From the NCBI GenBank assembly GCA_002746115.1, contig NVXL01000213.1, positions 1 through 46,820 on the forward strand: a DNA stretch of 46,820 nucleotides, given 5' to 3'. Positions 13,087-45,537 of this stretch are shown here, piece by piece (the stretch's first letter is position 1; each line of letters begins with the position of its first letter). The notes under the pieces are model-generated. The model was not told where the DNA came from. It was given only the letters and a program-made list of their open reading frames with translations, and made no database searches. This DNA comes from Alteromonadaceae bacterium (lineage in GTDB: Bacteria > Pseudomonadota > Gammaproteobacteria > Pseudomonadales > Cellvibrionaceae). The position numbers were made by a program, and so were the translations under genes.

Positions 13087-13277
13087 AAGGAGAAGTACTG
13101 CCAGTTGCTAAAGTTGTTATTGAGTTTATGTTTAAGGTGTTGTGAGGAAGAATAAACGTAGGCTTAAGTTAAGACAAGGAGATTCCTTATCGCTTGCGGT
13201 GAAAATAGGGGCAAGTACGGTTCTTACTGCTATCCTTGCTATTATAAATAGCTGCAATCAAGCAGGTTGTGTACGCC

Positions 13278-14642: not shown

Positions 14643-14661
14643 AGTCTATTCATTAAATTAC

Positions 14662-17600: not shown

Positions 17601-17949
17601 ATTAGTTTGGGATAAAGCCGCTGCTTTACGGCGCGTTCGGGGTAAGGCGGCACGTCTTCAGCGCTTGGTTGGTTTATATCTTGATGATATTCCTCTGCGT
17701 TTAACTGAATTAGAGCAAGCTTGTGCAGAGCAAGAACAAGACCAAAAGCGTTTGGTTGACTTGTGTCATTTAATCAAAGGTGTTGCCGCAAACCTCGGTG
17801 CGCTTCAAGTACAGCATGTTGCAACAAAAATGGATGCGGCTGGTAAGCGCGGAGACCTATCGCTTATGACGGCCGAATTGCCGCACCTGTTAAGTGCATC
17901 CGAAAATTTACATCAGGAATTGAAGTTGTTTGTAGAACAGAAAATTTAA
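14662..17949 (+). CDS. Hybrid sensor histidine kinase (Cache-PAS-HisKA-HATPase-REC-REC-Hpt)
   Basis: A 1095-residue inner-membrane kinase. TM1 is at about 10-30, a periplasmic Cache-like sensor at about 35-245 and TM2 at about 248-270. A PAS domain (about 290-405), a short coiled coil and HisKA with phospho-acceptor H435 ([12 protein letters not shown]) follow. The HATPase shows [17 protein letters not shown] and [10 protein letters not shown]. The first receiver (about 668-790, D726) and second receiver (about 818-945, D887) both keep the acidic pair and the conserved Lys, and Hpt carries H1036 ([12 protein letters not shown]). This is a complete His-Asp-His phosphorelay without an output domain, so a separate response regulator must exist elsewhere. 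The preceding binding-protein gene is presumably its periplasmic ligand-presenting partner, by analogy with TorT-TorS or LuxP-LuxQ. The signal sensed is unknown. Confidence 0.93.
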
Positions 17950-19262: not shown

Positions 19263-21161
19263 ATGCATAATAAAATTCAAAAACTAAAAAAAACTGGATT
19301 AAGCGCTTGTGTCGCAATGATCCTTGGTACGAGTCTGCCTTCTTGGGCGGTACAAGTCGATATGCAAGTGACGAATGAGTGGAACGAAGGCTTCCAAGTG
19401 GATGTCACTATCCTTAATGACGAAAGCGCAGCCATCAGCGGATGGGAGCTGGGTTTTGCCTCACCCATACAAATTGCTCAAATATGGAACGCCAATATAG
19501 AACCGAGCACAGGTGAACAGCATCTTTTTAGCGCGTTAGGGTGGAACGCTAATATTGCACCGGGTCAACAAGTAAGCTTTGGTTTTGTGGCTTCTGGTGG
19601 CACTAGTTCCGACCTTCCAACAGGTTATACATTTAATGGTGTTGCCGGCGGACCCCCAGGTTCAACGCCTGTACCGACAGCAACTCCGGCACCGACGCCA
19701 ACCGCTACACCAGCACCTACAGCTACACCAGCACCTACAGCTACACCGGCACCTACAGCAACACCAGCACCGACGACAACACCAGCACCGACGCCAACCG
19801 CAACACCAGCACCCACCGCAACACCTACGCCTGTTCCGACAGCAACGCCTACTCCTAGTGGCGGAGACTTTGCTGCGAATTGTACTCCAGGCGGCACCGG
19901 TGATTGGCTGCGTACTGCGGGTAATTTGTTAGTTGATCGCAATTGTCGGCCTGTTTGGTTAACTGGCGCGAATTGGTTTGGATTTAATGCGACTGAGCGT
20001 GTTTTCCACGGTCTTTGGTCGGTTAATTTAGATAGCACTATGCAAGCGATTGCTGATCGCGGCATCAACTTTTTACGAGTTCCTATTTCTACTGAGTTAT
20101 TACATGAGTGGAGTACAGGTCAAGCCGCTGGCGTGGCCATTAACGATTACGCTAACCCTGAATTAGCCGGTTTAACTAGCCTTGAAATATTTGATCAGTT
20201 ACTTGTTGTGAGTGAAAGCCTGGGCGTTAAAGTCATGCTTGATGTTCACAGTGCAAAAGCGGATAACACCGGTCACATTGCCCCTCTTTGGTACGATGAC
20301 ACTTTCACTGAAGCCATGTTCTATGATACTTGGGAGTGGGTTGCAACACGTTATAAAGATAACGATACCTTAATTGCCTACGATATTGAAAACGAACCAC
20401 ACGGAAATCAATCCAGCGCGCTACGTGCTAAATGGGATAACTCTCTCGACAGTGACAACTTTAAGTATGCTTGTGAGGAAGCCTCTAACCGTATTCTAAA
20501 CATTAACCCGGACGTACTGGTAATGTGTGAAGGCGTTGAGATCTTCCCAACTGACGGCATTACTTGGAGCTCGACTGACGAAGATGATTACCATGCAACT
20601 TGGTGGGGCGCTAACTTACGCGGTGTAACAGATTACCCAATTGACCTTGGCGCGAATCAGGATCAATTAGTTTACTCTCCGCATGAGTACGGGCCATTAG
20701 TTCACTTACAGCCATGGTTTCAATCAGCATTTACAGCTGAGTCTTTATACCAAGACGTATGGCAGCCAAACTGGTTCTTTATTCAAGAGCAAAACATTGC
20801 ACCGCTATTTATTGGTGAGTGGGGCGGCTTTATGGATGGTGGTATTAATGAGCAGTGGATGGCTTACTTCCGTGACTTCCTTGGCGAGCATTTTGTTCAC
20901 CACACTTTCTGGGTAATTAACCCTAACTCTGGCGATACTGGCGGACTTCTTAGCCACGACTGGGTGACTTGGGATGAAGATAAATACGGCACGATGTTAG
21001 AGCCTGTACTTTGGCAAGATGCTTCAGGTAAATATATTGGTCTAGATCACGACATACCATTAGGTGGTGTAGGGTCAACAACTGGTATTACTGTAGATGC
21101 ATATTACTCTAGCGGTGGTAGTGCACCTGCGGGACCGACGAGTACTACTGTTAGTAATTAA
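19263..21161 (+). CDS. Secreted cellulase: CBM2 - Pro/Thr linker - GH5
   Basis: The 632-residue protein has a signal peptide ending at PSWA (about residue 29) and a CBM2-type cellulose-binding module (about 30-128; [32 protein letters not shown]). A linker of TPAPTA repeats (about 133-200) leads to a GH5 catalytic barrel (about 205-615). The acid/base is E378 in DIENEPHG and the nucleophile E519 in FIGEWGG. The CBM2 lacks the pair of cysteines that usually staples this family's ends. An endo-beta-1,4-glucanase is the likely activity, although the GH5 subfamily is not clear to me and mannanase or lichenase activity is possible. It is monocistronic with a strong terminator directly downstream. 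Confidence 0.9.
19707..19796 (+). repeat. 18-bp tandem repeat encoding the TPAPTA linker
   Basis: Five successive 18-bp units of the form ACACCAGCACCTACAGCT; the first two are identical and the others differ by a few bases. Each encodes Thr-Pro-Ala-Pro-Thr-(Ala/Thr/Pro). In-frame copy-number change would alter linker length without breaking the gene. Confidence 0.9.
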
Positions 21162-26819: not shown

Positions 26820-26845
26820 TTTACCTCCCTATAACGGGAGGTAAA
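26820..26845. terminator. Hairpin between convergent RND and outer-membrane barrel genes
   Basis: TTTACCTCCC (26820-26829) and GGGAGGTAAA (26836-26845) form a perfect 10-bp stem with a six-base loop. The repeat starts two bases after the RND stop and its right arm lies in the last codons of the convergent gene. T-runs are short, so it may act weakly in both directions. Confidence 0.6.
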
Positions 26846-28001
26846 AGCCGAGATTAAACGATAACGCTTTGGCTTGCTCGTAATCGTAATCATCTGCGGA
26901 TATCTTGAGTTTAAAATAAGGTGTATTAATTTCAAAGCCTGTGGCTTCTAGGTCAAAGTTATAAGATAGACCAAGGTATATCTGCTTGAAAAATCGATGG
27001 CGGTAGGCTATCTGTGAAAAGTAATGTGTATCGTAACGGAAAGTTTCTAATTGTAGGGTATCTCGGCCTGTAAAATTATAATCGCCCCGCAATTTGAGCT
27101 GCATTGGGAGGCGCTGTCCGATGTTACGCTCGCTCTCTTGCCAAGAAAGTGCGGGACTCACATTGAGTAGTCCGTCGTCGTCAAAGCGTACGCGGTTGGA
27201 TGTTGCGCCGCCGACGGTACGGTCTTGGTTCTTCCAAGAAATTTTGCTGAATAAATCTTTACCCTTAAATTCAACATGAAATTTGTCCAGCGGGCGCCAT
27301 TGAATGTCGATGTCAGCGCTGTAGCCATTGGCGGATAATTCGCTTTTTTCTCGGTCAAAGAACTTATCTTCGGAATATTGGTAATCGAGTTCAAGATCGC
27401 CCGAGGGGTTATCGCCTAAGCCCCCTAGTACACCGTTGAGGCGGCCTTCAAGCATGTCGTAGGCTTCTAGTAGTGAAAGGTGTATTTGAAAATCAATGTT
27501 TTTCGAGTAGCTACCGTAATAACCGAATTTAACGCCATGTGCGCTTATGTGTTGCGCCTCAAGGTCGATATCGTAATCAAGCCCTTGAGGGAGGGGGAGG
27601 TCATTCTTGTCGGCGTAAAATACGGTAGCGGTGTCGTTGGTGAATTCTAGAAAATAATCATAACGAGTAAATATCGCGTAGGATATACCGCCAAGCTTAT
27701 CGCTAAGATGGATTTTATGTCCAAGTTCAACTTGTGAGGTGGTAATCGCAAGCCCACCCTTATCAAGGGTGGGGCCTTTTAAGCCATCAGCAAATTGCTT
27801 AATTGGGGAAACTTCACTAAAGCTAAAACTCTCGGTGCTTTGGTATACGTGGTTTTTTTCTGTTGCATAGAGGTTTTGTGTTGATAGCAGAAAGCAAGAA
27901 GTTGTTAATATGTTAAAGCTTATGCGTGCGTAACGTGAGTAGTGTTTTGGGGAGGGGGACTTATAACCGGTCTTAGTGACGCTTATTTTATTTAAATCCA
28001 T
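26829..28001 (-). CDS. Putative outer-membrane beta-barrel protein, unknown
   Basis: From ATG 28001 (AGAGA six bases upstream) the protein is about 390 residues; an in-frame TTG at 28073 would extend it by 24. The N-terminus has a basic region followed by ISFNILTTSCFLLSTQ and a likely cleavage near NLYA. The mature part is rich in alternating hydrophobic/polar strands with many aromatics (GGISYAIFTRYDYFLEF, IYLGLSYNFDLEATGF, ALSFNLGFYLPL), which suggests a beta-barrel of around sixteen or more strands. I do not recognise a family. It follows the large lipoprotein gene on the same strand, but a terminator lies between them. It could be a channel or a surface-assembly protein; this cannot be decided here. 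Confidence 0.65.
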   Translation of the reverse strand: MDLNKISVTKTGYKSPSPKHYSRYARISFNILTTSCFLLSTQNLYATEKNHVYQSTESFSFSEVSPIKQFADGLKGPTLDKGGLAITTSQVELGHKIHLSDKLGGISYAIFTRYDYFLEFTNDTATVFYADKNDLPLPQGLDYDIDLEAQHISAHGVKFGYYGSYSKNIDFQIHLSLLEAYDMLEGRLNGVLGGLGDNPSGDLELDYQYSEDKFFDREKSELSANGYSADIDIQWRPLDKFHVEFKGKDLFSKISWKNQDRTVGGATSNRVRFDDDGLLNVSPALSWQESERNIGQRLPMQLKLRGDYNFTGRDTLQLETFRYDTHYFSQIAYRHRFFKQIYLGLSYNFDLEATGFEINTPYFKLKISADDYDYEQAKALSFNLGFYLPL

Positions 28002-28082
28002 AAAAATCTCTGGTCTAGCTTTGTTGTCTTTGAAGTATAGCGTTAGATTTGATATTCGGAATTGTGCTTTCAATTTTTTTTC

Positions 28083-28157: not shown

Positions 28158-30572
28158 TTAGAAGCTCTCGTTAAAGCCGTCGGTGTAGCTGACAACAACA
28201 GTGCCTTGGTCGTCACTGATGGTGGCATGCTCTACGCCATCGACAGTAATGTTTCCGCTAACAACGCTTGCGCCATTAGTTTCTGTTTGCGTGAGAGATA
28301 GAACCACACCGCTTTCGTTGGCGACAGTTAAGCTCGACTCGGTAGCGTCGTCTGCAAGAGACGCACTGTTAAGTGCAATCGTTAACAAGGTAGCGTCAAA
28401 ATCAACGATAACAAGCAAGTCAGCATCGTCGGCACCGGTACGAGTCGCGATCACTGAGAGTGTGACGTCTTCTTCGCTAGAAATCCCCGGCACTTCAATT
28501 TGTGCTGTGATGTTAGCGGTGATATCGACGAAGTTGCTGTCACTCTCTTCAGTACAAACATCACTTTCTGACTGGGCACCGGTTACAAAGTCTCGGCTAT
28601 CAGAGCCAACACAGTTGAAGCTGAAGTCGGTACCGTCTGCGGTGACGCGAACGCTTGCGCTTAAGCTTGCACCGCTTGGCGCTTCGAATTCACCACTGAT
28701 AGCCAAAACGAGTTCATCAAAGGTAATGGTTTCATCCCATGTATCCAATACGCTAACAGGACCGTCATTGCCAGGAACGTAGGTTCCTGTCTCTGAGCTG
28801 TCAACGGTGACGTTACTTATGGATAGTAAGATGTCGCCAGTGAAGGTGACGGGATCAGTAACTACGCTAGAGCTGACTTCAGACATACTGACTTCAAGAT
28901 CAAAGACAACGCTGGTGAGGTCGGCATCAAACACTTCAGTACTACCGTTAGTGGTTTCCTGATTATCATTGATGCCAGGGATAGCTGTAGTTTCCACTTC
29001 CGAAGCTGTTGCCATTAAGGCCACATCACCTGAGATGATCTGGAGTGAAACACTTGCTGAGCTTGCTGTTCCCCATATATCCAAGTCGACCATAGCGGAG
29101 GCGGTATCAGTGCTTGTGCTACTGCCATCATCGTTAGCGACTGGTGTGCCATCAACATCGGTGACATCGGAGTTATTATCAACGGCACTGATATCTACCG
29201 CAACGGCAACCATATTTGGATCGGTACCGACGTTTACTGTGGCGTCTACGGTATAAGTGACTTCAGTATCGGTGGCAGCGATAGCGATGATAATATTGGT
29301 GTCTGGATCGGTAAATGTAGTTAAGTCAGTGTCAGCTTCATAAGCATCCCTAGCGCTAGCGATCGCTTCAGCTGTATAAACAAGTGCTTGTAAAACGTAA
29401 CCGGCATCACCATCTAGGCTGTTGCTGGCAAGTTCGACACGATCAGCAAAGGCTTCAGCATCCACAAATGTGGCCGCTTGCAAGTCACGTAGAGACTGTA
29501 CAAGGGCTTTAGCTTTATCTAGGTCGCCTAAGTTTGGATCCACTGCCGTGCCTGGGTCAGGATCGGTAGAGCCATTTTGAGCTAAGCCTTGGTTGGTATC
29601 GATAATGTTTTCGAGTGTAGCCAAGTTAGTTAACCCGTCGGTATCTGCGGCTTGAATCGCATCAATAACAGCAGAGGCCTGGGCTAGGATTTCAGCTAAA
29701 GTCACGCTAGTGCTTGCCGCATCTTCGGTATCCGCTAAACCACCATCGCTAACAAACTGTGTAGCAAAATTTTGTACTGCGGCGGCAATGGAGAGTGTTG
29801 GGTTGCCTCCAATTAAAGCTTCTACAATACTTGCGCTAAGTAAGTTGAAGTTAAGAACATTGTTGGACGCTGCGGCCACAGCTGCAGGATTCGTCAAATC
29901 GACAATGGGGAGTGTAGTAATGTCACCTTGAATACCGAAACGCTCAGCAATACTGCTGTTCGCATTTGATATAGCTGTGATGGCGGCTTCTAATGTGGTA
30001 TCACCACCAGTGCTTAAAGCATCCAAAGCGCTTGAGGTTGCAGTGTCTGTTAGCACTGAAAGGTTAACCTGTGTAGTTGAGTCGGTCACAGGGGGAACGA
30101 TCGCGTCGATATTAAAGTCAACATCGTCAATAGTGACAACGCCGCCAAAATCGACACCACCACCACAACCACCAGCCAAGTCACAGCGCATGCTCGTGCT
30201 GCCGTCATCCGCTGCACTCACACGCACAACAAATGGGCTGCCGTCGTAATCGGATATTTGAACCGAGTAGGTGCCGTCATCAGTGCTCGTTAAGCCGTTT
30301 ACAAGGCTGGTATCACTCCGTGCGCCATTAATAATTGGGTGGATGTTTACAATGCCGCCAAATATAAGGCCTTTAGAGGCTGCACCGCTGACAGTTAATG
30401 GAACGGGCTCAGGGGTTGGGGTTGCTGTTGGTTCAGCTGTTGGTTCGGCTGTTGGCGTTGGGCTGCCTACTAGCGGCGGGACTGACCCGTTGCCATTGCC
30501 ATTGTCGCATGCCGCAAGCGTAAGTGTCGCCGCAACGGATAAGAAAAGGATTAACAATCTCTTTGTACTCAT
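28158..30572 (-). CDS. Large acidic surface lipoprotein, unknown function
   Basis: From ATG 30572 the protein is about 804 residues; an in-frame ATG 66 bases upstream is less likely because MSTKRLLILFLSVAATLTLAAC gives a clean lipoprotein signal with lipobox LAAC. A Gly/Asn and TAEPTAEPTATPTPEP spacer leads into a first beta-rich domain (LTVSGAASKGLIFGG), then an Ala/Asp-rich probably helical region (about 190-420), then a Thr/Ser/Asp-rich beta-strand region to the end. Basic residues are rare, so the protein is strongly acidic, as are many secreted marine proteins. I do not recognise it as an enzyme. Roles in surface structure or polymer binding are possible. It is monocistronic by the strong terminator behind it. 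Confidence 0.75.
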   Translation of the reverse strand: MSTKRLLILFLSVAATLTLAACDNGNGNGSVPPLVGSPTPTAEPTAEPTATPTPEPVPLTVSGAASKGLIFGGIVNIHPIINGARSDTSLVNGLTSTDDGTYSVQISDYDGSPFVVRVSAADDGSTSMRCDLAGGCGGGVDFGGVVTIDDVDFNIDAIVPPVTDSTTQVNLSVLTDTATSSALDALSTGGDTTLEAAITAISNANSSIAERFGIQGDITTLPIVDLTNPAAVAAASNNVLNFNLLSASIVEALIGGNPTLSIAAAVQNFATQFVSDGGLADTEDAASTSVTLAEILAQASAVIDAIQAADTDGLTNLATLENIIDTNQGLAQNGSTDPDPGTAVDPNLGDLDKAKALVQSLRDLQAATFVDAEAFADRVELASNSLDGDAGYVLQALVYTAEAIASARDAYEADTDLTTFTDPDTNIIIAIAATDTEVTYTVDATVNVGTDPNMVAVAVDISAVDNNSDVTDVDGTPVANDDGSSTSTDTASAMVDLDIWGTASSASVSLQIISGDVALMATASEVETTAIPGINDNQETTNGSTEVFDADLTSVVFDLEVSMSEVSSSVVTDPVTFTGDILLSISNVTVDSSETGTYVPGNDGPVSVLDTWDETITFDELVLAISGEFEAPSGASLSASVRVTADGTDFSFNCVGSDSRDFVTGAQSESDVCTEESDSNFVDITANITAQIEVPGISSEEDVTLSVIATRTGADDADLLVIVDFDATLLTIALNSASLADDATESSLTVANESGVVLSLTQTETNGASVVSGNITVDGVEHATISDDQGTVVVSYTDGFNESF

Positions 30573-31102
30573 AGCTTTTATGCTCACTCGTAAAAAAATT
30601 AAGAAACAATCCATCGCTGTTTTAAAAGGCTGCAACATGCAAACATAGGCGCAATAAAAGCTAGGCTTAGTAGCTTGAAACGGCGGTCTCGTCTATGGTA
30701 AGCAATGGACGGGTACTAGCAAGGATAGTTCAGCCATTTTAGAAAAACCACTTTTACTAAAATTTCTTTTGCCTTTAAAAACAGTGTTTAAACAAAACTT
30801 GTGGAGGGCTTAGCCTTATTCTGTTTTTAAATTTAGGCGGGGATTATATTTCTTTTATTAAGGGTGTTTTTGACCCAAAATAGGTTTTTATTTAGATGTT
30901 CTGTTGAAATTTTTCGAATTCTGATCTATTGAATTTGACGTCCAAAAACACCCAAACATATGAGATATGGGGTTTTGTTAGTGAGTGTTTATTAAGTTTT
31001 GAGTGACGAATGTCGCTTAAGATGTAAAGTAAGTCGACTTTATTTTAGTTGTGGTGTTTTTCTTATGGGGAAACGCAATATTTAGAGGGCGTTGATGTGA
31101 AA
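30573..31102. other. Intergenic region with a long-spaced inverted repeat
   Basis: About 530 bases without a supported gene, upstream of the lipoprotein gene and downstream of the large GH5 gene. It holds the inverted repeat at 30862-30953 (listed separately) and otherwise AT-rich sequence. The lipoprotein promoter should be here, but no clear -35/-10 pair was picked out. Confidence 0.5.
30862..30953. repeat. 11-bp inverted repeat with 70-bp spacer
   Basis: GGGTGTTTTTG (30862-30872) and CAAAAACACCC (30943-30953) are exact reverse complements. The spacer contains TTCGAA and GACGTC palindromes. The layout fits paired regulator sites upstream of the lipoprotein gene, or the ends of a very small decayed element. 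No target duplication was seen. Confidence 0.6.
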
Positions 31103-31162: not shown

Positions 31163-34100
31163 TTATTGAGTCGGAAAGTTTGCACCTGCAGGAGGTGTAG
31201 CACCGAGGCAAGATACGTTATCAATCTCGATACTTGCTGATGAGCCATCACTTCCGCCAATCTGCCAGCTTAGTGCACGAACAGAGCTAACATTTTGAGC
31301 AACACCTGCCGCCCAGCTAGGCTGAGCCAGTTGGTTAAAGTTCACCAAAATTGTGCGCCAGTCATTTGATGATGGAGCCGTATGTTGATGAAAACCAAAA
31401 TCAGCGATGTTAGTTTGTTCAACACGAAAGTCATGGCTATCGCCACGATAATCATATTGTACTGCGCTACAACCGCTTAGATCGTGTCCGGTATCTGATG
31501 CATTCAGAGATAGAGCGAAACCCGCATAAGGATCCCAAAGTAAGGCGCCTTTACTAAAGTTTATCTGAGCGCTAATTGCACCACTGGCAGGTAGCTGTGC
31601 AGCACCTGTAATTGTGCTTTGACCACCGTCGCCAGAATCATCGAAAGAACCCCATTCACCACCCCAAAAGGAGAAGGTATCAGCGTCGTCGACGTTATCT
31701 ATCATCAGGCTAGCGGGGAGTTGTTGTGGACCGGCATTACTACTACCGGTGCGCCAAGGGGCAGTCGCTGCATAGCCAGCAAGACTGTTTTGTACCCACT
31801 CGCCGCGCTCACTTAAACCGCCGCTTGGTAGCCAGATGCTAGGTGGCTCATCCTTATCGGCAATTGCCCAGTAAGCGGATGAGATTTTGTTTTGATCAAG
31901 GAAGTTCATCCAGTCGTCACGACCCATACCGTCGTCGGCACCGTTAGGCCAAATGCCCCACTCACTTGCAAATACCGCAGCACCTGCGTCTAATGCTGTT
32001 TGTGCAAAGCCGCGCACGCCGTTGCCGTGTGAGCCAACGTAAAAATGCAATGCATAAGCGATGTTGCTACCACTAACAGGGTTAAATGCCGCTTCGTCCA
32101 CTCGCTGAGACCACCATGGGTTTCCGACAATAATTAGGTTGTCCGAATGCTCTCTAATAACTGGCACGATTTGCTCGGCATAGGACTTAACGGTATTCCA
32201 AGACGTAGTGTTTAATGGCTCGTTGTAGATTTCGAAAATAACATTATCATGATGACCGTAACGCTGTGCCATATCTCGGAAGAAATCAATGGACGCGCCA
32301 ACGTTATCTTCAGCGTGATGTGAGTGCCAATCAATAATGACGTAGATGTTACGTGCGATAGCCGCTTCGATAATTGTTTCAACGCGAGTTCGGTTTGCAA
32401 ACGGGTCTTCTATAAACCCGCCGCCATCTTCAGCGCCCATTGCTGCACGTATCATTTCGATATTCCACTCGTCTACCAGCATGTCTACTGTAGCGGCGTT
32501 CCACCATTTCTCTTGACCCCAGCCAGTGTTGCTCCAGAATAAACTCATGCCATGAATCTGAGCAGGTTGACCGGTGAGAGAGCCGTTTATGCGATTGCCG
32601 TTGGTTTCGAGTTGGCCATAGAAATCGACCGGACCATCACTGCCGCCGGAGCCGTCTGTTAGGCAGAACAAGTCGATACCTGAGATATCGCTATCCCCTA
32701 CGACGCCGTTGCCACCACCTAAGTGACAGGTCTGGCTTGTTTGTGAGGCGGTGACGATTACGCTGAAGTTACTACCTTCAGTTAATTGAGTGTTAAACCA
32801 AGTGGTGCCGGTATTGGCTGCGTTAAGCGTTAAAGTCTCGCTGCCATTTAGGCTCAAGCTAACACTACCTTCAGTTAGTCCATTCAAAGTAACGCCGATG
32901 TTATGTGTTGTGACGTTAGGGGTGGCAGTAGGCGTAGGCGTTGGAGTGCCAGGCCCTGGAGTGACGGTAGGCGTTGGTGTGACCGTCGGAGTTGGAGTAG
33001 GTGTGACTGTCGGAGTTGGAGTAGGTGTGACTGTCGGAGTTGGAGTAGGTGTGACCGTTGGAGTTGGAGTGGGTGTTGGAGTCGGAGTCGGTGTTGGTTC
33101 GATTAATTGCGTGACTCGGAACCAATTTAAGTTCCAAGCACCGCTCAGAGCTAAACCAAAGTTATGCGCACCAGCACTAAGTTCCACTTCGTGACTAATT
33201 GTCGCCCAGTTCTGCCAGCCACCGGTATTGGGTACCGTAAGGCTGCCATAAACAGGCGAGCCGCCACCTTCTTCAAGTTGCACCGAGCCGAATTGATCAC
33301 TCGCGACGCGATATTCGACGAGGTAAGTGCCGGTAACCGGTAGGTTCACTGTACTAAATGTCATCCAATCACCAGTATCGAACCAGCCAGCGTTTTGTCC
33401 GCCGCCTGTATCACTAGTACTTTCAATTTGAATGCCATTTTGAGCAGAGTAATCTTCCGCTTGAATGGTGATGCTGACACCAGGCTCCGGAGTGCTCGTA
33501 GGGTTTGGTGTAGAAGTGGGGGTTGGTGTAGGTGTAGGTGTAAAAGGTGTGGTCGAAGTGATTTCAAACCAGTTAATGTTCCATCCACCGTTGTTAGCCG
33601 CAATCGAAATGACTTGCTCACCGGCTTCCAGATTGACGGTGTGGGATTCCGTTGTCCAGTTTTGCCATGCGCCAGTTTGAGGGACGTTGAGGTCGCCAAA
33701 AACAGTGCTTTGGCCACTTTGCTCAAGCTGGAATGCGCCACCGCCGTCAAGGCTTGCTAAGCGGTATGACACGGTATATGTGCCGCTGGCAGGTACATTG
33801 ACAGCGTAGCTCATCCAGTCTCCAGCGTCGATAAAGCCGACGTTAGTGCCGCCACCAGTATCATCGGTGTTCTCGGTTTGAATACCGCTAGATTGGCAGT
33901 ACGACTCCGCTTCAATGCGTGCAGGCACTTGGGTGAAAGTGTCACAGCTAGAGCTTCCGCCTCCGCCTGATTTAAATGGCCAGTTGCTAACAATTCCAGC
34001 AACTTTGTTGCCTGATTCGGTCAGGTTGGTTGTGCCAGGATGGAAGATAGAAGCTGACTCGCCTTTATCGTTGATAGCCCAGTTTGCATGGCTAATGCCG

Positions 34101-35011
34101 TTGTCCTGTAAAAACTGCATCCAGATATCGGTTTCGCCATGGTTCAAAGGGCCGTTGCCGCTGGCTTCTACAGTTCCCCACTCAGTGGCAAACAACGCGA
34201 TGCCGTTATTGAGAGCCGTCTGGGCTTTTTGTCTTATGCCTTCTTTGTGTGTACCGGCATAAAAGTGCAAGGCGTAAGCAATGTTGCCGTGGCTAGTAAT
34301 AGGATCAAAGGAAGCTTGATCTACGTCTTGAGACCACTTAGGGGTGCCGACAATAATTAGATTATCACTATCGATTTCACGAATAGCGCTGATAACTGTT
34401 TCAGCATAAGGCTTGATGTCGTGACTCCACGACACGTGAATAGGCTCGTTGTAGATCTCATAGATAACGTTATCGAGGTGGCCGTAATCGTTCGCCATGA
34501 TGCGGAAGAAATCAACGGCTGCGTTGGGGTTTTGCTCGGCATGATGGCTATGCCAGTCGATAATGACGTACATATCGTTGGCAACTGCAGCGTCAACAAC
34601 GGTGCGAACGCGTGACACATTACCGCCTGGGCTGGATAAATAGCCGCCCCCGTCTTCTACGCCCATCGATGCGCGTACAATACTGGCCTGCCAGTTGTTT
34701 CTTAACGAGGCAACTTGGTTTGCGGTGTAAAACTTTTCACCACCCCAACCGTCGTTACTCCAAAACATGCTGTAACCAGCAAAACTTTTAGATTGGCCAT
34801 CGGCCAATACTCGGTTACCTTGAACGCTGAGTTTTTCAACAGCAGCTTCAACGTGCATGGCGGATGTGCCAAGCGCACTGAGTGCAACAAGTACTTGTGC
34901 TGGTGTTCTTACTTTTTGCCACAAGCTAGATGCAAGTGACGTTTTTCTTTGTGCAGTACTATTCCTTTGTGCAGTACTATCCGTAGGTTTTATCGTATTG
35001 ATAGATTTCAT
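31163..35011 (-). CDS. Bimodular cellulase GH5 - CBM6 - CBM6 - X - GH5 - CBM11-like
   Basis: A secreted 1282-residue enzyme. The long signal peptide ends near MHVEA (55). GH5 domain 1 is at about 58-345 (acid/base E189 in IYNEP, nucleophile E277 in ATEWGT). Two CBM6 modules follow at about 360-485 and 511-636, a Pro/Thr/Val linker at 637-700, and a small Ig-like module with two Cys at about 703-785. GH5 domain 2 is at about 795-1088 (E931 and E1017 in ASEWGI). A C-terminal jelly-roll resembling CBM11/CIA30 spans about 1100-1270. Both barrels carry IDWHSHHAE and the GH5_2-like EWG segment of bacterial endoglucanases and keep their glutamates. The plan recalls Saccharophagus degradans Cel5A. 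A good ribosome-binding site, AAGGGGA, precedes the ATG. Endoglucanase action on cellulose is expected. Confidence 0.93.
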   Translation of the reverse strand: MKSINTIKPTDSTAQRNSTAQRKTSLASSLWQKVRTPAQVLVALSALGTSAMHVEAAVEKLSVQGNRVLADGQSKSFAGYSMFWSNDGWGGEKFYTANQVASLRNNWQASIVRASMGVEDGGGYLSSPGGNVSRVRTVVDAAVANDMYVIIDWHSHHAEQNPNAAVDFFRIMANDYGHLDNVIYEIYNEPIHVSWSHDIKPYAETVISAIREIDSDNLIIVGTPKWSQDVDQASFDPITSHGNIAYALHFYAGTHKEGIRQKAQTALNNGIALFATEWGTVEASGNGPLNHGETDIWMQFLQDNGISHANWAINDKGESASIFHPGTTNLTESGNKVAGIVSNWPFKSGGGGSSSCDTFTQVPARIEAESYCQSSGIQTENTDDTGGGTNVGFIDAGDWMSYAVNVPASGTYTVSYRLASLDGGGAFQLEQSGQSTVFGDLNVPQTGAWQNWTTESHTVNLEAGEQVISIAANNGGWNINWFEITSTTPFTPTPTPTPTSTPNPTSTPEPGVSITIQAEDYSAQNGIQIESTSDTGGGQNAGWFDTGDWMTFSTVNLPVTGTYLVEYRVASDQFGSVQLEEGGGSPVYGSLTVPNTGGWQNWATISHEVELSAGAHNFGLALSGAWNLNWFRVTQLIEPTPTPTPTPTPTPTVTPTPTPTVTPTPTPTVTPTPTPTVTPTPTVTPGPGTPTPTPTATPNVTTHNIGVTLNGLTEGSVSLSLNGSETLTLNAANTGTTWFNTQLTEGSNFSVIVTASQTSQTCHLGGGNGVVGDSDISGIDLFCLTDGSGGSDGPVDFYGQLETNGNRINGSLTGQPAQIHGMSLFWSNTGWGQEKWWNAATVDMLVDEWNIEMIRAAMGAEDGGGFIEDPFANRTRVETIIEAAIARNIYVIIDWHSHHAEDNVGASIDFFRDMAQRYGHHDNVIFEIYNEPLNTTSWNTVKSYAEQIVPVIREHSDNLIIVGNPWWSQRVDEAAFNPVSGSNIAYALHFYVGSHGNGVRGFAQTALDAGAAVFASEWGIWPNGADDGMGRDDWMNFLDQNKISSAYWAIADKDEPPSIWLPSGGLSERGEWVQNSLAGYAATAPWRTGSSNAGPQQLPASLMIDNVDDADTFSFWGGEWGSFDDSGDGGQSTITGAAQLPASGAISAQINFSKGALLWDPYAGFALSLNASDTGHDLSGCSAVQYDYRGDSHDFRVEQTNIADFGFHQHTAPSSNDWRTILVNFNQLAQPSWAAGVAQNVSSVRALSWQIGGSDGSSASIEIDNVSCLGATPPAGANFPTQ
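32979..33074 (-). repeat. 24-bp tandem repeat encoding the PT/V linker
   Basis: Four consecutive 24-bp units (plus-strand form GTGACTGTCGGAGTTGGAG followed by TAGGT). Units 2 and 3 are identical; units 1 and 4 differ by one to three bases. They encode the TPTPTPTV repeats between the second CBM6 and the second half of the enzyme. An 18-bp degenerate unit precedes them at 32961-32978. Near identity implies recent duplication. Confidence 0.92.
34947..34982 (-). repeat. 18-bp tandem duplication in the cellulase signal peptide
   Basis: Two adjacent 18-bp units, CTTTGTGCAGTACTATTC and CTTTGTGCAGTACTATCC, differ by one base. They encode STAQRN and STAQRK in the unusually long N-region before the hydrophobic core. 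The duplication lengthens the polar leader but keeps the frame. Confidence 0.9.
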
Positions 35012-40147: not shown

Positions 40148-40645
40148 ATGACTTACAGCGCAAAAGCCGTAGCTAACCTCTTGATTGATGTGGCCCGAGA
40201 AAATGGTAGCTCTTTAGATCAAATGAAGCTACAAAAGCTTGTTTACATCACACACGGCTGGAACCTTGCAATCACCAACAAGCCCTTGATTGAAGACGGT
40301 ATTCAGGCTTGGAAATATGGCCCTGTAATTCCGGTGTTATACGAGGAGTTTAAAAACTGTGGTCGAAATGACATCATGGATTATGCAACGGATGTTAATG
40401 TTGCTGACGACCTGAGTTTCTCATTCACGCCTCCTAAAATAAATGAAAATGATAGCGCCACATATAAGCTAGCAAATAAGATATGGGCGACTTATGGGAA
40501 GTATAGCGGCCCACAACTGTCTAATTTAACCCATATGCCTGATACTCCTTGGGATAAAGCTTACATCGGTGGTGGCCAAGCGGTAATTGATAACAGTTTG
40601 ATTAGAGAGCACTTTGTTAACTTATCACGGAATCCAAATGCCTGA
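40148..40645 (+). CDS. Panacea-domain (SocA/DUF4065) protein, probable antitoxin
   Basis: A 165-residue cytoplasmic protein. The Panacea signature is clear: SLDQMKLQKLVYITHGWNLA (22-41), then PLIEDGIQAWKYGPVIPVLYEEF (48-70) and the later LSNLTHMPDTPWDKAY. Panacea proteins include the proteolytic adaptor SocA and the antitoxin PanA, which neutralises many unrelated toxins, including membrane-acting ones. A strong AGGAGG lies five bases before the ATG, so high expression is expected, as for an antitoxin. The next gene starts inside this one with an eight-base overlap (ATG 40638, stop 40643-40645), so the two are translationally coupled. The domain call is firm; the antitoxin role is an inference from family and layout. 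Confidence 0.88.
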   Translation: MTYSAKAVANLLIDVARENGSSLDQMKLQKLVYITHGWNLAITNKPLIEDGIQAWKYGPVIPVLYEEFKNCGRNDIMDYATDVNVADDLSFSFTPPKINENDSATYKLANKIWATYGKYSGPQLSNLTHMPDTPWDKAYIGGGQAVIDNSLIREHFVNLSRNPNA

Positions 40646-41108
40646 TAACGTCTCTCTCGATGCTCTAGACACCATTCAGATTCCCACCCTTGCAGAACAA
40701 TCTATCGAAGACGAGCTTTACCAATCATCCGAAAAACAATCACATGAAGAGCATAAAGTTCGCGGTGCGCAAGATGAGGCCTTAGGCGTAGCACGAGAAA
40801 AAATACGTAAGCTTGAAATTGAAAATGACGATTTGGCTAGGCTTGGGCCGCATAGAAGAAAGTATTCTTGGTGGATTTTATACTTCGTTATTGCCTTCGT
40901 AACCGTGACATTTGTAACGTTATTAATGAGCTCATATCAAATAAAAATCTCCGACGGAGACGCCTACCGGACTTTAATTAACTTGGATAAAGAAGTTGTT
41001 GTAACGCTGTTAGCGACAAACACTGTACAGGTTGTAGGCTTACTTTATGTCGTGGCCAAATGGCTTTTCCCGTCCAAACCGGAACAAAAGAAAGATAAGC
41101 AAGCGTAA
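40638..41108 (+). CDS. Coiled-coil two-TM protein, candidate toxin/effector partner
   Basis: About 156 residues from ATG 40638; an in-frame TTG at 40614 is less likely. Residues 1-65 are acidic and helical and form a probable coiled coil (GVAREKIRKLEIENDDLARL). Two TM helices follow at about 74-95 (WWILYFVIAFVTVTFVTLLM) and 118-142 (VVTLLATNTVQVVGLLYVVA), separated by a short polar loop, and the protein ends in a lysine-rich tail. I recognise no named family. Its position directly behind and overlapping a Panacea gene is that of a PanT toxin. Membrane insertion suggests action by membrane disruption or gating, but this is a hypothesis. CGGA seven bases before the ATG can serve as ribosome-binding site. 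Confidence 0.8.
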   Translation: MPDNVSLDALDTIQIPTLAEQSIEDELYQSSEKQSHEEHKVRGAQDEALGVAREKIRKLEIENDDLARLGPHRRKYSWWILYFVIAFVTVTFVTLLMSSYQIKISDGDAYRTLINLDKEVVVTLLATNTVQVVGLLYVVAKWLFPSKPEQKKDKQA

Positions 41109-41162: not shown

Positions 41163-41900
41163 TTAATCGATTACAAATCGATAGCCTACATCTCTGATGG
41201 ACTGAATAAACTTTGGGGATCGAGGGTTGGTTTCAATTTTTTTACGCAAAGTCGTGACACAGCGGTCGACACTGCGTTCAGTCGTTAGGAGGCTGTTACG
41301 CCAGACGGCGTTGAGCAGCGTCTCGCGAGTGAGGGCGTGGCCTGCGCGACTCAAGAAAAAAGCTAACATATTGTACTCTTTGGGCGTTAACTTGATGGGG
41401 GCTTGGGTCTCTTGTTTCTCCTGCCTCTCTTGTGAAATGTGACGTGTTAATCGATGTGTTTGAGTGCAAAGATTAAAGTCACCAAAGTGATAGGAATGGG
41501 TTTGACTCTTGGCGTGTCGACGGATGAAGGCTTGGCTTCTAGCGTGAAGCTGGTTAATGCTAAAGGGCTTAGTGACATAATCATCGGCGCCAAGGTTTAA
41601 GCCGCGCACAATGTCGTCCTCATGCCCTTTAGCGGTTAACATGATAATAGGCGTGTCGATTTGAGCTTCGCGGATCTGGGCGCAGACATCAAAGCCATTA
41701 ATCTTTGGCAGCATAATATCCAATAATATCAAGTCAACCGGCGTCGAGAAGGCGATCTCCAGGGCCTGTTCTCCGTCCATAGCGGTGTAAACTTGGTACT
41801 TCTTACGGCTATAGCTATCTTTTAATCCACGGATAATCGCGGAATCATCCTCAATGATAAGGACGCTGTGTTGATCGCTAGGTGTGGGGGCTTCGGTCAT
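41163..41900 (-). CDS. OmpR/PhoB-family response regulator
   Basis: A 245-residue regulator from ATG 41900; an upstream in-frame ATG at 42020 would overlap the kinase gene by over 100 bases and is rejected. The receiver domain (about 12-125) has phospho-acceptor D61 in LILLDIMLP, the acidic pair IIEDD, and conserved TAK and DDYVTKPF. The C-terminal winged helix (about 145-243) has LTPKEYNMLAFFL, LTRETLLNAVW, RSVDRCVTTLRKKIE and the end RDVGYRF. It starts 11 bases after the sensor kinase gene, so the two form a cognate pair. It is the last gene of the three-gene minus-strand operon. Target genes are unknown; the upstream TPR gene may be one. Confidence 0.94.
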   Translation of the reverse strand: MTEAPTPSDQHSVLIIEDDSAIIRGLKDSYSRKKYQVYTAMDGEQALEIAFSTPVDLILLDIMLPKINGFDVCAQIREAQIDTPIIMLTAKGHEDDIVRGLNLGADDYVTKPFSINQLHARSQAFIRRHAKSQTHSYHFGDFNLCTQTHRLTRHISQERQEKQETQAPIKLTPKEYNMLAFFLSRAGHALTRETLLNAVWRNSLLTTERSVDRCVTTLRKKIETNPRSPKFIQSIRDVGYRFVID

Positions 41901-41910
41901 GACGCTTATT

Positions 41911-43926
41911 CTAATCTGTTGAGGCGGTTGTTGGGATGAGTAGGCTAAAGGTGCTGCCCTGTCCGAGTGTGCTTTGTAAGTCGATACGGCCATTGTGAGC
42001 GCGGGCAATATAGGCGGCAATGTATAAGCCTAGCCCGCAACCTTCGGTTTTTCTATTGAGGTAAGGATCAGCACGGAAAAATCGATTAAATACTCTTTGG
42101 CAGTCCTTTTTACTCAAGCCTATTCCCTTGTCGGTGACGGAGAATACGATATGTGAGCCATTTTTGTGATCGTAAATGGTCTGGCATTCAAGGGTGATGT
42201 GTTTGTCATCTGAGCTGTATTTACAGGCGTTATCAAGTAGATTGATTAAGGCGGTTTTTAGCATGTCTTTATCGCCTTCGAATAAAATCTCGTCAGAGTT
42301 TTTAGGCATGATTTTGTGTAGTGTGACGTTTTGCTGTTTAAACTTCTCAGCGAGTACTTCTAGAGATTCATCGATAACTTGCTCGGCTTGCACTGTGTCG
42401 AAGTAGAAATTATGCTGGTCACGTTCAACCCGTGAGTAGGTTAGAAAGTTATCGACTAGGTGTGTCAAGCGAATATTTTCTCGGCTAATAATTTCGATAT
42501 ATTCTCTTACGGTCTGCTGGGGGCAATCGCTATCTTCTAACATGTTATCAATAAGTAGGCGAATCGAGGTCAATGGGGTTTTTAATTCATGGGAGACTGT
42601 CGCCACTACGTCGTTTTTGAGTTGGTGCAACTTTTCCTGCCTATTCATATAGTAGGCAACGTAGATGGAGGAAATGATGAGTATGGCGATAACCATTGAA
42701 CCGGTCCAAAGAAATAACCAGGTTTTGGCCGTAATCGAGTCGTGTAAAGTCGTACGGTTCTGCCAGTCGGCAACAAAGGTCAAACCCTCTAATCTGTCGT
42801 TTAAAGGTATTTTCATAAATACCTCAGCAGATGCGCTATTGTCGTTTGCTGAGATAATATTGATATTAAGTTTGGCACCGCTGTAGCTGTGTTGGAACTC
42901 ATCCGTAAATGTGTCTGCCAGCAGGTGTTTGTTTACAAGCAAGGTTATACGCTTATCTTTGGTATGCAGTGCAATGTGTTCGGAATTAACCGTGGTCGCG
43001 CCCGTTCTCGGTGTTAATGTTGCGCGGGTTTGCTTATTTTTCAGGATGTTTTGGGCAAGTTGCTCTGCATCAATCGTTGGGAATGTCAGGTGATCAATAC
43101 CGGCTTGTTTTGCTACCGCTAGCGCTCGCTGCGCGATAAAGAGACGTTGGCTAGCGGGCATTTGCTTGTGCTGATAGTCATTGAGTTGGGTGGCTAGTGC
43201 GCGTAAATTTTCCTCATTGGGGTTTAGCTCGGCTATACGCAGCCTTGCATCCATAGCGGTACTGCGCACATTGGAGTCTAGAGCTTGCTGCTTTTGCTCG
43301 GTGTCCACGAGTTGTTGATAATATAGGCCTGTCTGTTTCAGCTGATTTAACTTGTATGCGTTACGTGCCATGGCGAGTAAAATCTTGGCTTGTTTTTGAC
43401 GGTGTTGCGTATCATATTTTGGGATTAAAGCTTTTAATTTCTTATAGCTTTGAAGGGCTTGCGCATGCTGTTTGAGGTAAAATTCTTGGTGCTGTGCTTT
43501 TTGCCACAAGGGGTGTTTGATTGGCGCATTTGAGGTGTTGGTAGTGGCGTTGGGGTAGGCGACTTGACCGTCCGGCTTCCATAAGATAACACTGTCGACA
43601 TAGTCCTGCTGGATAATCTCGGAAAATAATTTTCCGTAGTTTTGGTTTGTATTGTTTGTGCTGCTGGTATTGCCGGTATTGCTATTAGTGTCAGAGGCTT
43701 GTTGCTCAAAATAACTCCTTGTCCTAGAATTCCAAAGTTGCTGTACTGCCGCTAGCGATTTAAGTGCATCTTTATAGTAAATCGATTTTAATTTTTGCTC
43801 AGTAGCAATTCGCTCGTTTTGCATTGAGTGATACATAAACCACATAATGCAAAGTGTTGGCAGCACAAAACCCAAGCATAAGGCTGCGAGATAGGGCTTT
43901 ATTTTAGGTTTTGTGCTGATTAACAT
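41911..43926 (-). CDS. Sensor histidine kinase with long periplasmic helical domain
   Basis: The 671-residue inner-membrane kinase has TM1 at about 12-32 and a very long periplasmic region (33-400). This begins with a low-complexity Asn/Ser/Thr stretch (79-96) and has a helical, TPR-like section (about 140-280; ALQSYKKLKALIPKYD, AKILLAMARNAYKLNQLKQ, RLFIAQRALAVAK), then a beta-rich part. TM2 is at about 402-425, then HisKA with H446 (TVSHELKTPLTS) and HATPase (LINLLDNACKYS, DKGIGLS, EGCGLGLYIA). No HAMP domain is seen between TM2 and HisKA. It lies 27 bases after the secreted TPR-protein gene and 11 before the regulator gene. The TPR-like sensor suggests that it detects a protein or envelope structure. 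Confidence 0.92.
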   Translation of the reverse strand: MLISTKPKIKPYLAALCLGFVLPTLCIMWFMYHSMQNERIATEQKLKSIYYKDALKSLAAVQQLWNSRTRSYFEQQASDTNSNTGNTSSTNNTNQNYGKLFSEIIQQDYVDSVILWKPDGQVAYPNATTNTSNAPIKHPLWQKAQHQEFYLKQHAQALQSYKKLKALIPKYDTQHRQKQAKILLAMARNAYKLNQLKQTGLYYQQLVDTEQKQQALDSNVRSTAMDARLRIAELNPNEENLRALATQLNDYQHKQMPASQRLFIAQRALAVAKQAGIDHLTFPTIDAEQLAQNILKNKQTRATLTPRTGATTVNSEHIALHTKDKRITLLVNKHLLADTFTDEFQHSYSGAKLNINIISANDNSASAEVFMKIPLNDRLEGLTFVADWQNRTTLHDSITAKTWLFLWTGSMVIAILIISSIYVAYYMNRQEKLHQLKNDVVATVSHELKTPLTSIRLLIDNMLEDSDCPQQTVREYIEIISRENIRLTHLVDNFLTYSRVERDQHNFYFDTVQAEQVIDESLEVLAEKFKQQNVTLHKIMPKNSDEILFEGDKDMLKTALINLLDNACKYSSDDKHITLECQTIYDHKNGSHIVFSVTDKGIGLSKKDCQRVFNRFFRADPYLNRKTEGCGLGLYIAAYIARAHNGRIDLQSTLGQGSTFSLLIPTTASTD

Positions 43927-43953
43927 AGAAGATACTTCGTGGTTATTTAGCGA

Positions 43954-45537
43954 TTACAGTGGCTTGTTCTGTGGTTGTTTGCTTGCTGTTTTAGTCGCTG
44001 TTTTAGTTGATGTGGCGTCGATTACTTTAAAGCTTTCAATCATTTGATCATACTCAGCACGATGGCTCTCGAAGCTATCTTTTTCGATTTGAAAAATAAA
44101 CGAGTATCGATGTTTCTCGTGAAGAATAATCGCACGGTACTCGACCATAGCTTTTTTGTTGAATTCGTAGTCAGAAACATAACGAATGGCTTTGTTACCG
44201 TTCACCGTAAATTCTTCCATAGTCGCTTCACGAGGGACAAAGTTTTTGAAAAAACCGGTCGCCCACTCAATGGCCCATTCCGCAGGCATTTTCGGGTCTG
44301 TGGGGTACCACTCGCCAGTAGGGTGATCCGACACATCAAGGTATCCGACGGTTCCGGTGGCATCAAAAGGCACAATCATTAATTGAAGATGCTCATCATT
44401 TTTATGTGATGTATCAAAAGCGTGCCAGCGTTTTGCCAATTCAAATTCTGCGTTTTTACTGGCATAGCGATATGTGGTTGCTTGTGACGCTGAGAGTGAT
44501 CCGCTACCCTTAAGTTTAAACGTTTGGTGTTGAACGCTATACATCACAATAGGGCGGCTTGGCTCATCCTTCGCAACCCATAGTTCCATGCTAAATAGTG
44601 CTGCCTTAAATTGGCGATAGGTGACTTTTACGTGGTAAGTATTGTAACTCCCTGCGGGAACGTCAATTCTTGTGTTGTCATCAAGTACCTGTAAATCAAG
44701 GTGGATATAACCACCGGCTTGATGGCTGTAACTCGGTATTGTGACGCTGTAGTCTTTTTGTAGCGGTAGTCGTCGGATAATAGTTTCCATACTACTATCG
44801 GAGATTGATCCGGGTTTGAAGTCTTCTACAATGACCTCGTTAGAGATATTGTTTCGCATGATCACCTTGCCATCTTTCACTTCGGTGCTCATTCCTGGCC
44901 AATGTGGGCCACGGAGATCGGTAGAAATGGTCTCACCGCTTTCTTCGTCCTCTAATAAACTCACCGCGATTTGTCGTCGGTTGTGGGCGCTGGCAAAGAC
45001 CTGTTGATTTAGCCATTGGACTTGCCCGTTTGTGCCTATTTGCTTGAGTTTCACGAGATTTGTGTAGCTTTCTTTTAGCCCTGCGGGGTTATGGATGGTG
45101 TATTCAAGAACCTCGCCGTCGACCCATGGCGGTGGAAGTAAATTGAGCTGTGTAAACGGCAGGCTAAATTTTTCGTCTTCTGCATTTGCGACGATATTGG
45201 CAAAATCACCGTATTGATCAATCAGGGCGTTAAAGTTGAGCAGTGCTTGAGAGTTGTCGCCCAGCTTTTTATAACATCGCCCGAGGTGTAATAAGGCTTT
45301 TGCCGATACAACTCGTTGATTATCGGTGTTGGCGATAATGTCGGTATAAAGTTTGATCGCGGTATCGAGGTCACCTAAGGTTTCTTCTGTGTAGACGGCT
45401 TGGTCAAAACTTGCGTTAATATCCGTGTGTGTGTCGGCTTGAACTTGCCATGCTTGGCTTGATAGTGCGATAAGTCCGGCCAAACATAAGGCTTTTCTAA
45501 TCGATGTGCTTTTGTACTTTGTCTGTATTTTGTTCAT
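43954..45537 (-). CDS. Secreted TPR protein with DUF3108-like beta domain
   Basis: The 527-residue protein has a signal peptide ending near QVQA (35), two or three TPR-like helices pairs (about 45-135; DLDTAIKLYTDII, AKALLHLGRCYKKLGDNSQALLNFNALI), and then a beta-rich domain (about 150-365; VDGEVLEYTIHNPAG, IDVPAGSYNTYHVKV, WVAKDEPSRPIVMYSVQ) resembling DUF3108-type periplasmic domains. A C-terminal alpha/beta domain (about 385-512; EDVSD-like YLDVSDHPTGEWYPTDP, FNKKAMVEYRAIIL) may be a PsbP/MOG-like fold. It is the first gene of the operon with the sensor kinase and regulator, so it may be the periplasmic co-sensor. No enzymatic motif was recognised. Confidence 0.82.
   Translation of the reverse strand: MNKIQTKYKSTSIRKALCLAGLIALSSQAWQVQADTHTDINASFDQAVYTEETLGDLDTAIKLYTDIIANTDNQRVVSAKALLHLGRCYKKLGDNSQALLNFNALIDQYGDFANIVANAEDEKFSLPFTQLNLLPPPWVDGEVLEYTIHNPAGLKESYTNLVKLKQIGTNGQVQWLNQQVFASAHNRRQIAVSLLEDEESGETISTDLRGPHWPGMSTEVKDGKVIMRNNISNEVIVEDFKPGSISDSSMETIIRRLPLQKDYSVTIPSYSHQAGGYIHLDLQVLDDNTRIDVPAGSYNTYHVKVTYRQFKAALFSMELWVAKDEPSRPIVMYSVQHQTFKLKGSGSLSASQATTYRYASKNAEFELAKRWHAFDTSHKNDEHLQLMIVPFDATGTVGYLDVSDHPTGEWYPTDPKMPAEWAIEWATGFFKNFVPREATMEEFTVNGNKAIRYVSDYEFNKKAMVEYRAIILHEKHRYSFIFQIEKDSFESHRAEYDQMIESFKVIDATSTKTATKTASKQPQNKPL

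Follow-up and report, generated by a model that had tools for sequence, protein, structure and literature searches.

A predicted secreted TPR protein encoded beside a TPR-sensor histidine kinase and an OmpR-family regulator in two distant groups of bacteria

Introduction

What is the role of a secreted repeat protein whose gene stands directly beside that of a kinase carrying helical repeats in its own sensor? The question is raised by three genes on contig NVXL01000213.1 (assembly GCA_002746115.1) of an Alteromonadaceae bacterium placed by GTDB in the Cellvibrionaceae; the window analysed here comprises positions 1 to 46,820 of this contig. The genes encode a protein with tetratricopeptide repeats (TPR) and a predicted signal peptide (S), a sensor histidine kinase (K) and a response regulator of the OmpR/PhoB family (R). 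We favour, with a probability of about 0.6, the reading that the two-component system K-R has a secreted partner of its own in S, which acts on K through its TPR half and meets the signal with the other half. A preliminary description of the locus had suggested a co-sensor that docks on the kinase by repeat–repeat contact, and its claims are taken up below where results bear on them.

Results

The genes of S (43954..45537, 527 aa), K (41911..43926, 671 aa) and R (41163..41900, 245 aa) all lie on the minus strand. The open reading frames confirm the 27 bases given previously for the spacing of S and K, and 10 bases separate the stop codon of K from the start of R, counted from the ATG at 41900; with this likely start, R is shorter than the 285-aa frame first listed. 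The neighbouring frame downstream is convergent to the triad and the neighbouring same-strand frame upstream is more than 500 bases away, and therefore the unit consists of three genes. Frames and Pfam domains agree with the operon of a secreted TPR/DUF3108-like protein, a kinase and an OmpR regulator that had been described. Promoter and terminator patterns occurred at chance level only. R contains a receiver (Response_reg, 108.6 bits) and a winged helix (Trans_reg_C, 80.7 bits), as seen with Pfam, NCBIfam and the translation; it remained below the cut-off of each NCBIfam family among the 25 matches listed of 106, and PnpS/PhoR-like and PhoB-like scores were far under the curated cut-offs among the 25 rows listed for each.

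Among 144 Cellvibrionaceae genomes searched, the K sensor was found at five places and S likewise at five, in the same four genomes. At all five places S and K are adjacent and the order is S-K-R. The relatives include Agaribacterium haliotis, which has two copies, and Exilibacterium tricleocarpae, both Cellvibrionaceae. Their S proteins are only 23–28% identical to the window copy, so that the conserved neighbourhood is not a matter of mere recent common descent. Downstream of two of the Cellvibrionaceae triads, a TonB receptor and a tryptophan-halogenase-like gene were recognized by reading. A draw of genomes from the order yielded nothing full-length and only two further short TPR matches (2 of 390 genomes), and a draw from the class only short TPR matches, in 39 of 321 genomes besides that of the window. 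Among 289 genomes drawn from the window's phylum at large, only the window's own carried the S TPR, with up to 18 candidates scored per genome. On plasmids there was no match for S or for a K sensor of the second phylum described next, and an S protein of that phylum matched in part only, mostly to propeller-type proteins.

A scan of named genomes added one further locus, L028, from an uncultured high-GC metagenome-assembled genome (MAG), in which S is followed by K before the contig ends. The K-sensor profile matched 31 of 297 genomes of the phylum of this MAG (up to six candidates scored per genome). Two of these matches, in the MAG itself and in genome G841, were full-length; the others were partial and mostly covered the TPR stretch. 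We take this second group to be another phylum on two grounds. Its listed genomes and those listed for the window's phylum do not overlap, both lists being partial. In addition, the 16S rRNA of one member, G1123, was no more than 79.9% identical to any of the plasmid-borne 16S records listed, all of full coverage, while nine records outside the list had higher identity over what their ranking indicates to be shorter matches. From the style of its genes the group may be Acidobacteriota, a suspicion only. Sixteen stretches were taken from 15 of the 31 genomes, and in 13 of them a kinase and a regulator (in the MAG, the contig end) stand beside a protein that starts with the S-type TPR; the L090 stretch ends inside the regulator. 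PD40 β-propeller repeats follow the TPR in all ten second-phylum partners scanned. The C-terminal half of the partner is thus exchanged between the two groups.

For the linkage analysis, a profile of the S TPR alone was built from 18 sequences and applied to 32 chosen genomes (16 with K matches, 12 without and four Cellvibrionaceae) and to 337 drawn second-phylum genomes. The module was present in 28 of the 337, and one genome can have as many as eight such places; in the 12 chosen for lack of K matches, hits were weak or absent (best E 2.2e-10). All 39 places of the 14 newly positive genomes were fetched together with those of the first set, scanned by local profiles and counted at a local E <1e-11. 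A regulator and a kinase occurred within 2.5 kb on the same strand at 78 of 89 distinct places over the two phyla, although where triads form arrays the closest kinase may belong to the next unit. The set whose genomes were partly picked by kinase matches contributed 43 of 50 places, and the set fetched for S matches only 35 of 39, both found with a TPR profile built from kinase partners. Twelve of the 14 second-set genomes were outside the kinase-match list (five of them had not been searched there), which limits the selection bias. Within the same 2.5 kb, a frame matching the K-type TPR profile was present at 65 of the 78 places (38 in the first set, 27 in the second). Neighbourhood with the kinase, which the preliminary description had named beforehand as a point on which its proposal depended, was therefore retained both in the family and over the two phyla.

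More than half of the 11 exceptions, six, are close to the end of a contig or directly at it (L086, where a kinase is present, L104, L107, L121 and two in L169). The others are a place with a regulator piece only (L166), a second S in tandem (L112), a degraded regulator frame with no kinase (L110), kinase-sensor and regulator pieces fused in one frame (L145) and an ordinary TPR protein (L129). As a control, 12 weaker generic TPR matches were inspected, none of which had a kinase or regulator on the same strand within 2 kb; L124 has them at a distance of at least 2.6 kb, and one match in L089 has them on the opposite strand. The gene order is S-K-R in Cellvibrionaceae, in G841 and, as far as S then K, in the L028 MAG, and K-R-S in most of the second phylum. 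Several triads can occur together: contig C36 of genome G1389 carries six units of TPR-kinase, regulator and partner on one strand within approximately 40 kb (32500-72500, L142-L144).

Clustering by blast of 280 neighbour genes from 79 loci, some of them overlapping, revealed no family common to most triads. Families recognized by reading were TPR proteins (nine loci), FtsX-type permeases (six) and Ser/Thr kinases (six). The largest, likewise assigned by reading, is a di-haem cytochrome peroxidase/MauG-like gene near the triad at 12 of the 79 loci (L088, L091, L100, L102-L104, L114, L115, L118, L121, L171, L172), possibly a target or companion of the triad.

Protein S begins with a predicted signal peptide of about 35 residues (45433..45537), in which no lipobox was seen; it was assigned by reading of the sequence, and residues 1–37 are of low confidence in the model. 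The structure model of S, built with five sequences (mean predicted local distance difference test score, pLDDT, 79), consists of helices at residues 40–125 and two β domains. The TPR module (residues 38–130, 45148..45426), the part common to partners of both phyla, is supported by Pfam TPR_6 at 29.4 bits, above the curated cut-off of 26.3, by the S-type TPR profile and by VIA-align 2 (Z 13.5 to 3ma5_A over 88 residues, root mean square deviation (rmsd) 2.0); Sel1 gave no Pfam match in S. It is followed by a β-barrel (residues 127–349, 44491..45159) like the DUF1849 protein 6ntr (Z 15.8, 202 aligned, rmsd 3.5), chain 6ntr_D aligning with residues 134–349. The barrel includes the DUF3108 match (PF11306, residues 233–331; 33 bits against a cut-off of 26, E 6.7e-8). 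Among five relatives of S, DUF3108 was above the cut-off in two (L028, 31.5; L022, 36.4) and just under it in two (25.5 and 24.7), and the fifth had no match. Residues 127–344 also aligned with a sperm axoneme chain, 9fqr_Xh (Z 18.3, 210 aligned). The C-terminal domain (residues 350–508, 44014..44490), absent from the preliminary description, has a PsbP/MOG1/DcrB-like fold according to VIA-align 2, in which residues 351–506 matched cyanobacterial PsbP (2xb3; Z 15.4, 150 aligned, rmsd 2.8), and Foldseek. Pfam gave no match to this domain in the window protein and a DcrB match under the cut-off in L022. MucB was among the Foldseek matches of S (rank 32, probability 0.94). Such likeness of folds shows no function.

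The catalytic part of K is typical in its domains, with HisKA at residues 437–501 (42424..42618, 60.3 bits) and HATPase_c at residues 551–666 (41929..42276, 85 bits), both from Pfam; the phospho-acceptor motif VSHEL[KR]TPL was present in all five kinases aligned. The first transmembrane helix (TM1, about residues 12–34, 43825..43893) was read from the sequence and extends in the model into a long periplasmic helix. The second (TM2, about residues 400–424, 42655..42729), also read from the sequence, runs into the dimerisation helix. That no HAMP is visible between TM2 and HisKA, as noted before, was borne out by the absence of a match in 16 kinases (that of the window, five relatives and ten from the second phylum) and by a single model helix at 391–464; in the ten second-phylum kinases no named sensor domain was found either (E ≤0.01).

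The periplasmic part of K was modelled as residues 1–505 with five related sequences at moderate confidence (mean pLDDT 71.9). In the model, a helix at 11–81 is followed by a helix at 92–107 and two strands, by eight paired helices at 139–296, by six strands and one helix at 309–387 and by the single helix 391–464, which passes through TM2 into HisKA. The paired helices form a predicted TPR solenoid (43039..43512) that aligned with LGN (4wne) at Z 13.6 over 145 residues (rmsd 3.7), close to the value of approximately 13 under which, according to the tool's own warning for helical repeats, Z can mean a common arrangement only; PlcR and Rap-type proteins scored lower. Foldseek returned weak E-values (best 0.016) with a probability near 1 for many rows. 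A six-row sensor profile matched consensus TPR proteins in the PDB (best E 0.0017), and TPR models matched the sensors of some K relatives under the cut-offs; the repeats of the window K itself were not seen by Pfam. Taken with the TPR of S, these Pfam, profile and model results uphold the earlier observation of helical repeats in both the secreted protein and the periplasmic half of the kinase. The two pieces flanking the solenoid, residues 92–124 (43555..43653) and 309–387 (42766..43002), are alpha/beta in the secondary structure of the model and might be the first and second halves of a PAS/Cache-like fold. From this arrangement, the solenoid may interrupt a PAS/Cache-like core or sit on top of one.

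Pfam offered no sensor family of known ligand for the periplasmic domain of K, a possibility that had been left to a profile check; the single stray match to the periplasmic part had an E of 0.047, far under the cut-off, in a search at E ≤1. Matches of the K-sensor profile to solved structures were nearly all TPR proteins, with no VbrK or VxrA chain at E ≤10. Neither protein was among the 50 rows listed for K by Foldseek or VIA-align 2, and they may be present further down. A search of a viral library gave weak matches only, many of them TPR-like (best E 0.012), and a profile of the whole of K found kinase cores only among the 60 matches listed.

To compare the divergence of the parts, 55 complete triads were used, four with short S ends having been dropped from 59. 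Mean identity was highest in the regulator (0.51), followed by the kinase core (0.41) and the S TPR (0.40), and lower in the K TPR (0.28) and the rest of S (0.27). Distances between S TPRs tracked those of K and R (r 0.60–0.69), and those of the rest of S less so (0.35–0.47). For the 49 triads of the second phylum alone, the correlation to the K TPR was 0.51 for the S TPR against 0.09 for the rest of S, a gap of which part may be noise, as S outside its TPR aligns poorly and is in part non-homologous between phyla. Taken at face value, these sequence comparisons would mean that S evolves in step with the kinase in its TPR half and has more freedom in the other. Profiles of the two TPRs matched each other weakly, as TPRs in general would.

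Some other features of the window were recorded. Two plus-strand frames at 40148-41108 are convergent to the triad. One encodes a Panacea/SocA-type antitoxin domain (PF13274, 74.3 bits) and overlaps the other, a 164-aa frame, by 32 bases, or by fewer, as the 164-aa frame starts with a TTG. A membrane helix was read from the sequence of the 164-aa frame, which matched nothing in Pfam or PADLOC, and the two genes may be a toxin–antitoxin pair with an unnamed membrane partner. At 13269-17949 (plus strand), only 19 bases separate a Peripla_BP_6 gene from the gene behind it, which encodes a hybrid kinase containing PAS, Hpt and two receiver stretches; this is likely another pairing of a binding protein with a kinase. 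Glycoside hydrolases are encoded at 1205-3082 (GH8 with CBM), 8802-11465 (GH3), 19263-21161 (GH5 with CBM2) and 31163-35011 (GH5 with CBM6/CBM35), and from these genes the source organism looks like a degrader of plant polysaccharides. Its 6.3-Mb genome has 124 HisKA matches, many in open frames of 1300–1800 aa. Two adjacent minus-strand frames at 26829-28073 (414 aa) and 28158-30638 (826 aa) gave no Pfam match at E ≤1e-4 and no PADLOC match at E ≤0.01.

Discussion

Kinases with a periplasmic partner are known, and the plan of the triad is shared with VxrABC and, in gene content, with RvvABC. Each of these Vibrio systems is described as having a kinase, a regulator of OmpR type and a third protein, predicted to be periplasmic, that plays a part in signalling (PMC8534201, PMC10237652). 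The VxrA/VbrK sensor is PAS-like next to the membrane and TPR-like distal to it, and in VxrA no linker separates TM2 from the dimerisation and histidine phosphotransfer (DHp) helices (PMC8534201, PMC10237652), as in K. In K the TPR is supported by model, alignment and profile, whereas the alpha/beta remainder is seen as secondary structure only. The domains differ, the Vibrio systems being marked by a kinase sensor of the DUF3404 family and a periplasmic protein of the DUF2861 family. DUF3404 (PF11884) was without match in the window K (E ≤1), five relatives (E ≤0.1) and ten second-phylum kinases (E ≤0.01), with the reservation that HMMER filters can drop weak matches of this model, and DUF2861 was without match in S (E ≤1), five relatives (E ≤0.1) and ten second-phylum partners (E ≤0.001). 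The sizes differ as well: the periplasmic part of K has about 365 aa compared with 224 for the DUF3404 domain of RvvA, and S has 527 aa with a TPR of its own compared with 276 for RvvC. The earlier statement that no named system is known with exactly this plan must therefore be qualified: the plan resembles VxrABC and RvvABC, although the DUF3404, DUF2861 and Sel1 models gave no match in the triad.

The RSI switch of Rhizobiales, ExoR-ExoS-ChvI, is similar in that a secreted helical-repeat protein acts on the periplasmic domain of a kinase paired with an OmpR-family regulator; ExoR is described as having a signal peptide and six Sel1 repeats (PMC4550343), in contrast to the TPR and two further domains of S. 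The K sensor, unlike the ExoS plan, itself carries repeats. PG1058 of Porphyromonas (TPR, propeller, CRD and OmpA_C) resembles the second-phylum partners in having a TPR followed by a PD40-type propeller; it is a type IX secretion component with OmpA_C, and the passages on it pair it with no TPR-sensor kinase (PMC5053529). The Brucella DUF1849 protein 6ntr has a barrel like that of S, where barrel and TPR are joined in one chain beside a kinase. We take 6ntr to be EipB, which reportedly works together with TtpA. The latter, a periplasmic TPR protein, is mentioned in a passage with citation to the EipB paper (PMC7327166). The triad was not found described in the open-licence literature, subscription papers being outside the scope of this search. 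What is new is that one TPR module, that of S, serves as the constant partner, is fused to exchangeable domains and is spread over two phyla.

We propose the following mechanism. S would be exported to the periplasm, where its C-terminal half, the DUF3108/DUF1849-like barrel and PsbP-like domain or, in the second phylum, the PD40 β-propeller, would meet the signal. The N-terminal TPR module, which stays constant, would act on K at the sensor with its own TPR. The kinase would pass the change directly from TM2 into the HisKA helices and phosphorylate R, whose regulon probably includes its own operon. In our view S would hold K back until a ligand, or loss of S, frees the kinase, as ExoR is reported to do and as has been suggested for VxrC. 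According to the passages on VxrABC and RvvABC, interaction of VxrC with VxrA "appears to inhibit" VxrA, and the rvv promoter rose 12-fold when rvvC was deleted (PMC10237652).

Several observations weigh against this mechanism. Neither S nor K matched in 140 of the 144 family genomes, and the system is therefore accessory. In the second phylum, L095 and L098 have TPR-type kinases without S in the fetched stretch, and the L098 frame also lacks HATPase_c. Deletion of rvvC or rvvB left transcription of biofilm genes unchanged (PMC10237652), and deletion of vxrC, D and E left type VI secretion unchanged (PMC10268840). Paired evolution of the two TPRs was not upheld: their distances correlate at r 0.60, but the partial correlation given the kinase-core and regulator distances is 0.007, a value reached in 135 of 300 permutations. 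This lends no support to direct TPR–TPR contact, and the docking by repeat–repeat contact suggested in the preliminary description was not borne out by the distance test. The same result would fit a role of S as a product under K-R control instead of an input, namely an envelope or lipid/polymer-handling protein whose TPR binds other envelope proteins, with K sensing alone and the gene link reflecting co-regulation. S could be such a product, as its folds occur in envelope proteins (DUF1849 β-barrel, PsbP/DcrB/LpqN), MucB is among its Foldseek matches and it is usually the last gene in the second phylum. We nevertheless consider this unlikely, since in Cellvibrionaceae, G841 and L028 the gene of S comes first, and since the TPR and K-R are kept even where the C-terminal half of S is replaced altogether, a pattern more in keeping with an adapter than with an enzyme-like product.

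K might also sense a small ligand directly, through the Cache/PAS-like part or the TPR groove, while S delivers or scavenges the ligand without docking on K. Alpha/beta pieces flank the TPR in the model as in PAS-like sensors, and a pocket has been described in the TPR-like domain of VbrK (PMC8534201). Against this, β-lactams did not bind VbrK in one study, whose authors assumed a docking sensing protein (PMC8534201). This explanation appears improbable to us, given the lack of a Pfam sensor model and the poor conservation of the K sensor outside TPR positions, with four invariant columns in a 15-row alignment. Finally, the neighbourhood could be an inherited operon structure spread by transfer, S being functionally unrelated to K. 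The patchy occurrence, in 4 of 144 family and 28 of 337 second-phylum genomes, would be in line with this, yet two gene orders, several triads per genome as in the array of G1389 and the linkage over two phyla make it a very remote explanation.

We therefore retain the two-component system with a dedicated secreted partner. Conservation of the unit in two distant groups suggests, short of proof, a helper that tells the sensor what is outside. The triads might further belong to a large two-component family of at least two phyla, in which the constant TPR of the partner plugs into the TPR-containing sensor and the other half is exchanged for new specificities, with up to eight module copies per genome; we put this forward tentatively, at somewhat less than even odds. 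For TPR-like kinase sensors such as VbrK, the question of a partner can now be put to a set of kinases in which a candidate for such a protein adjoins the kinase in 78 of 89 cases and combines a constant TPR half with an exchangeable one. Pairs from environmental bacteria make the docking idea directly testable, and genomes with several triads, such as the G1389 array, are suited to tests of pair specificity.

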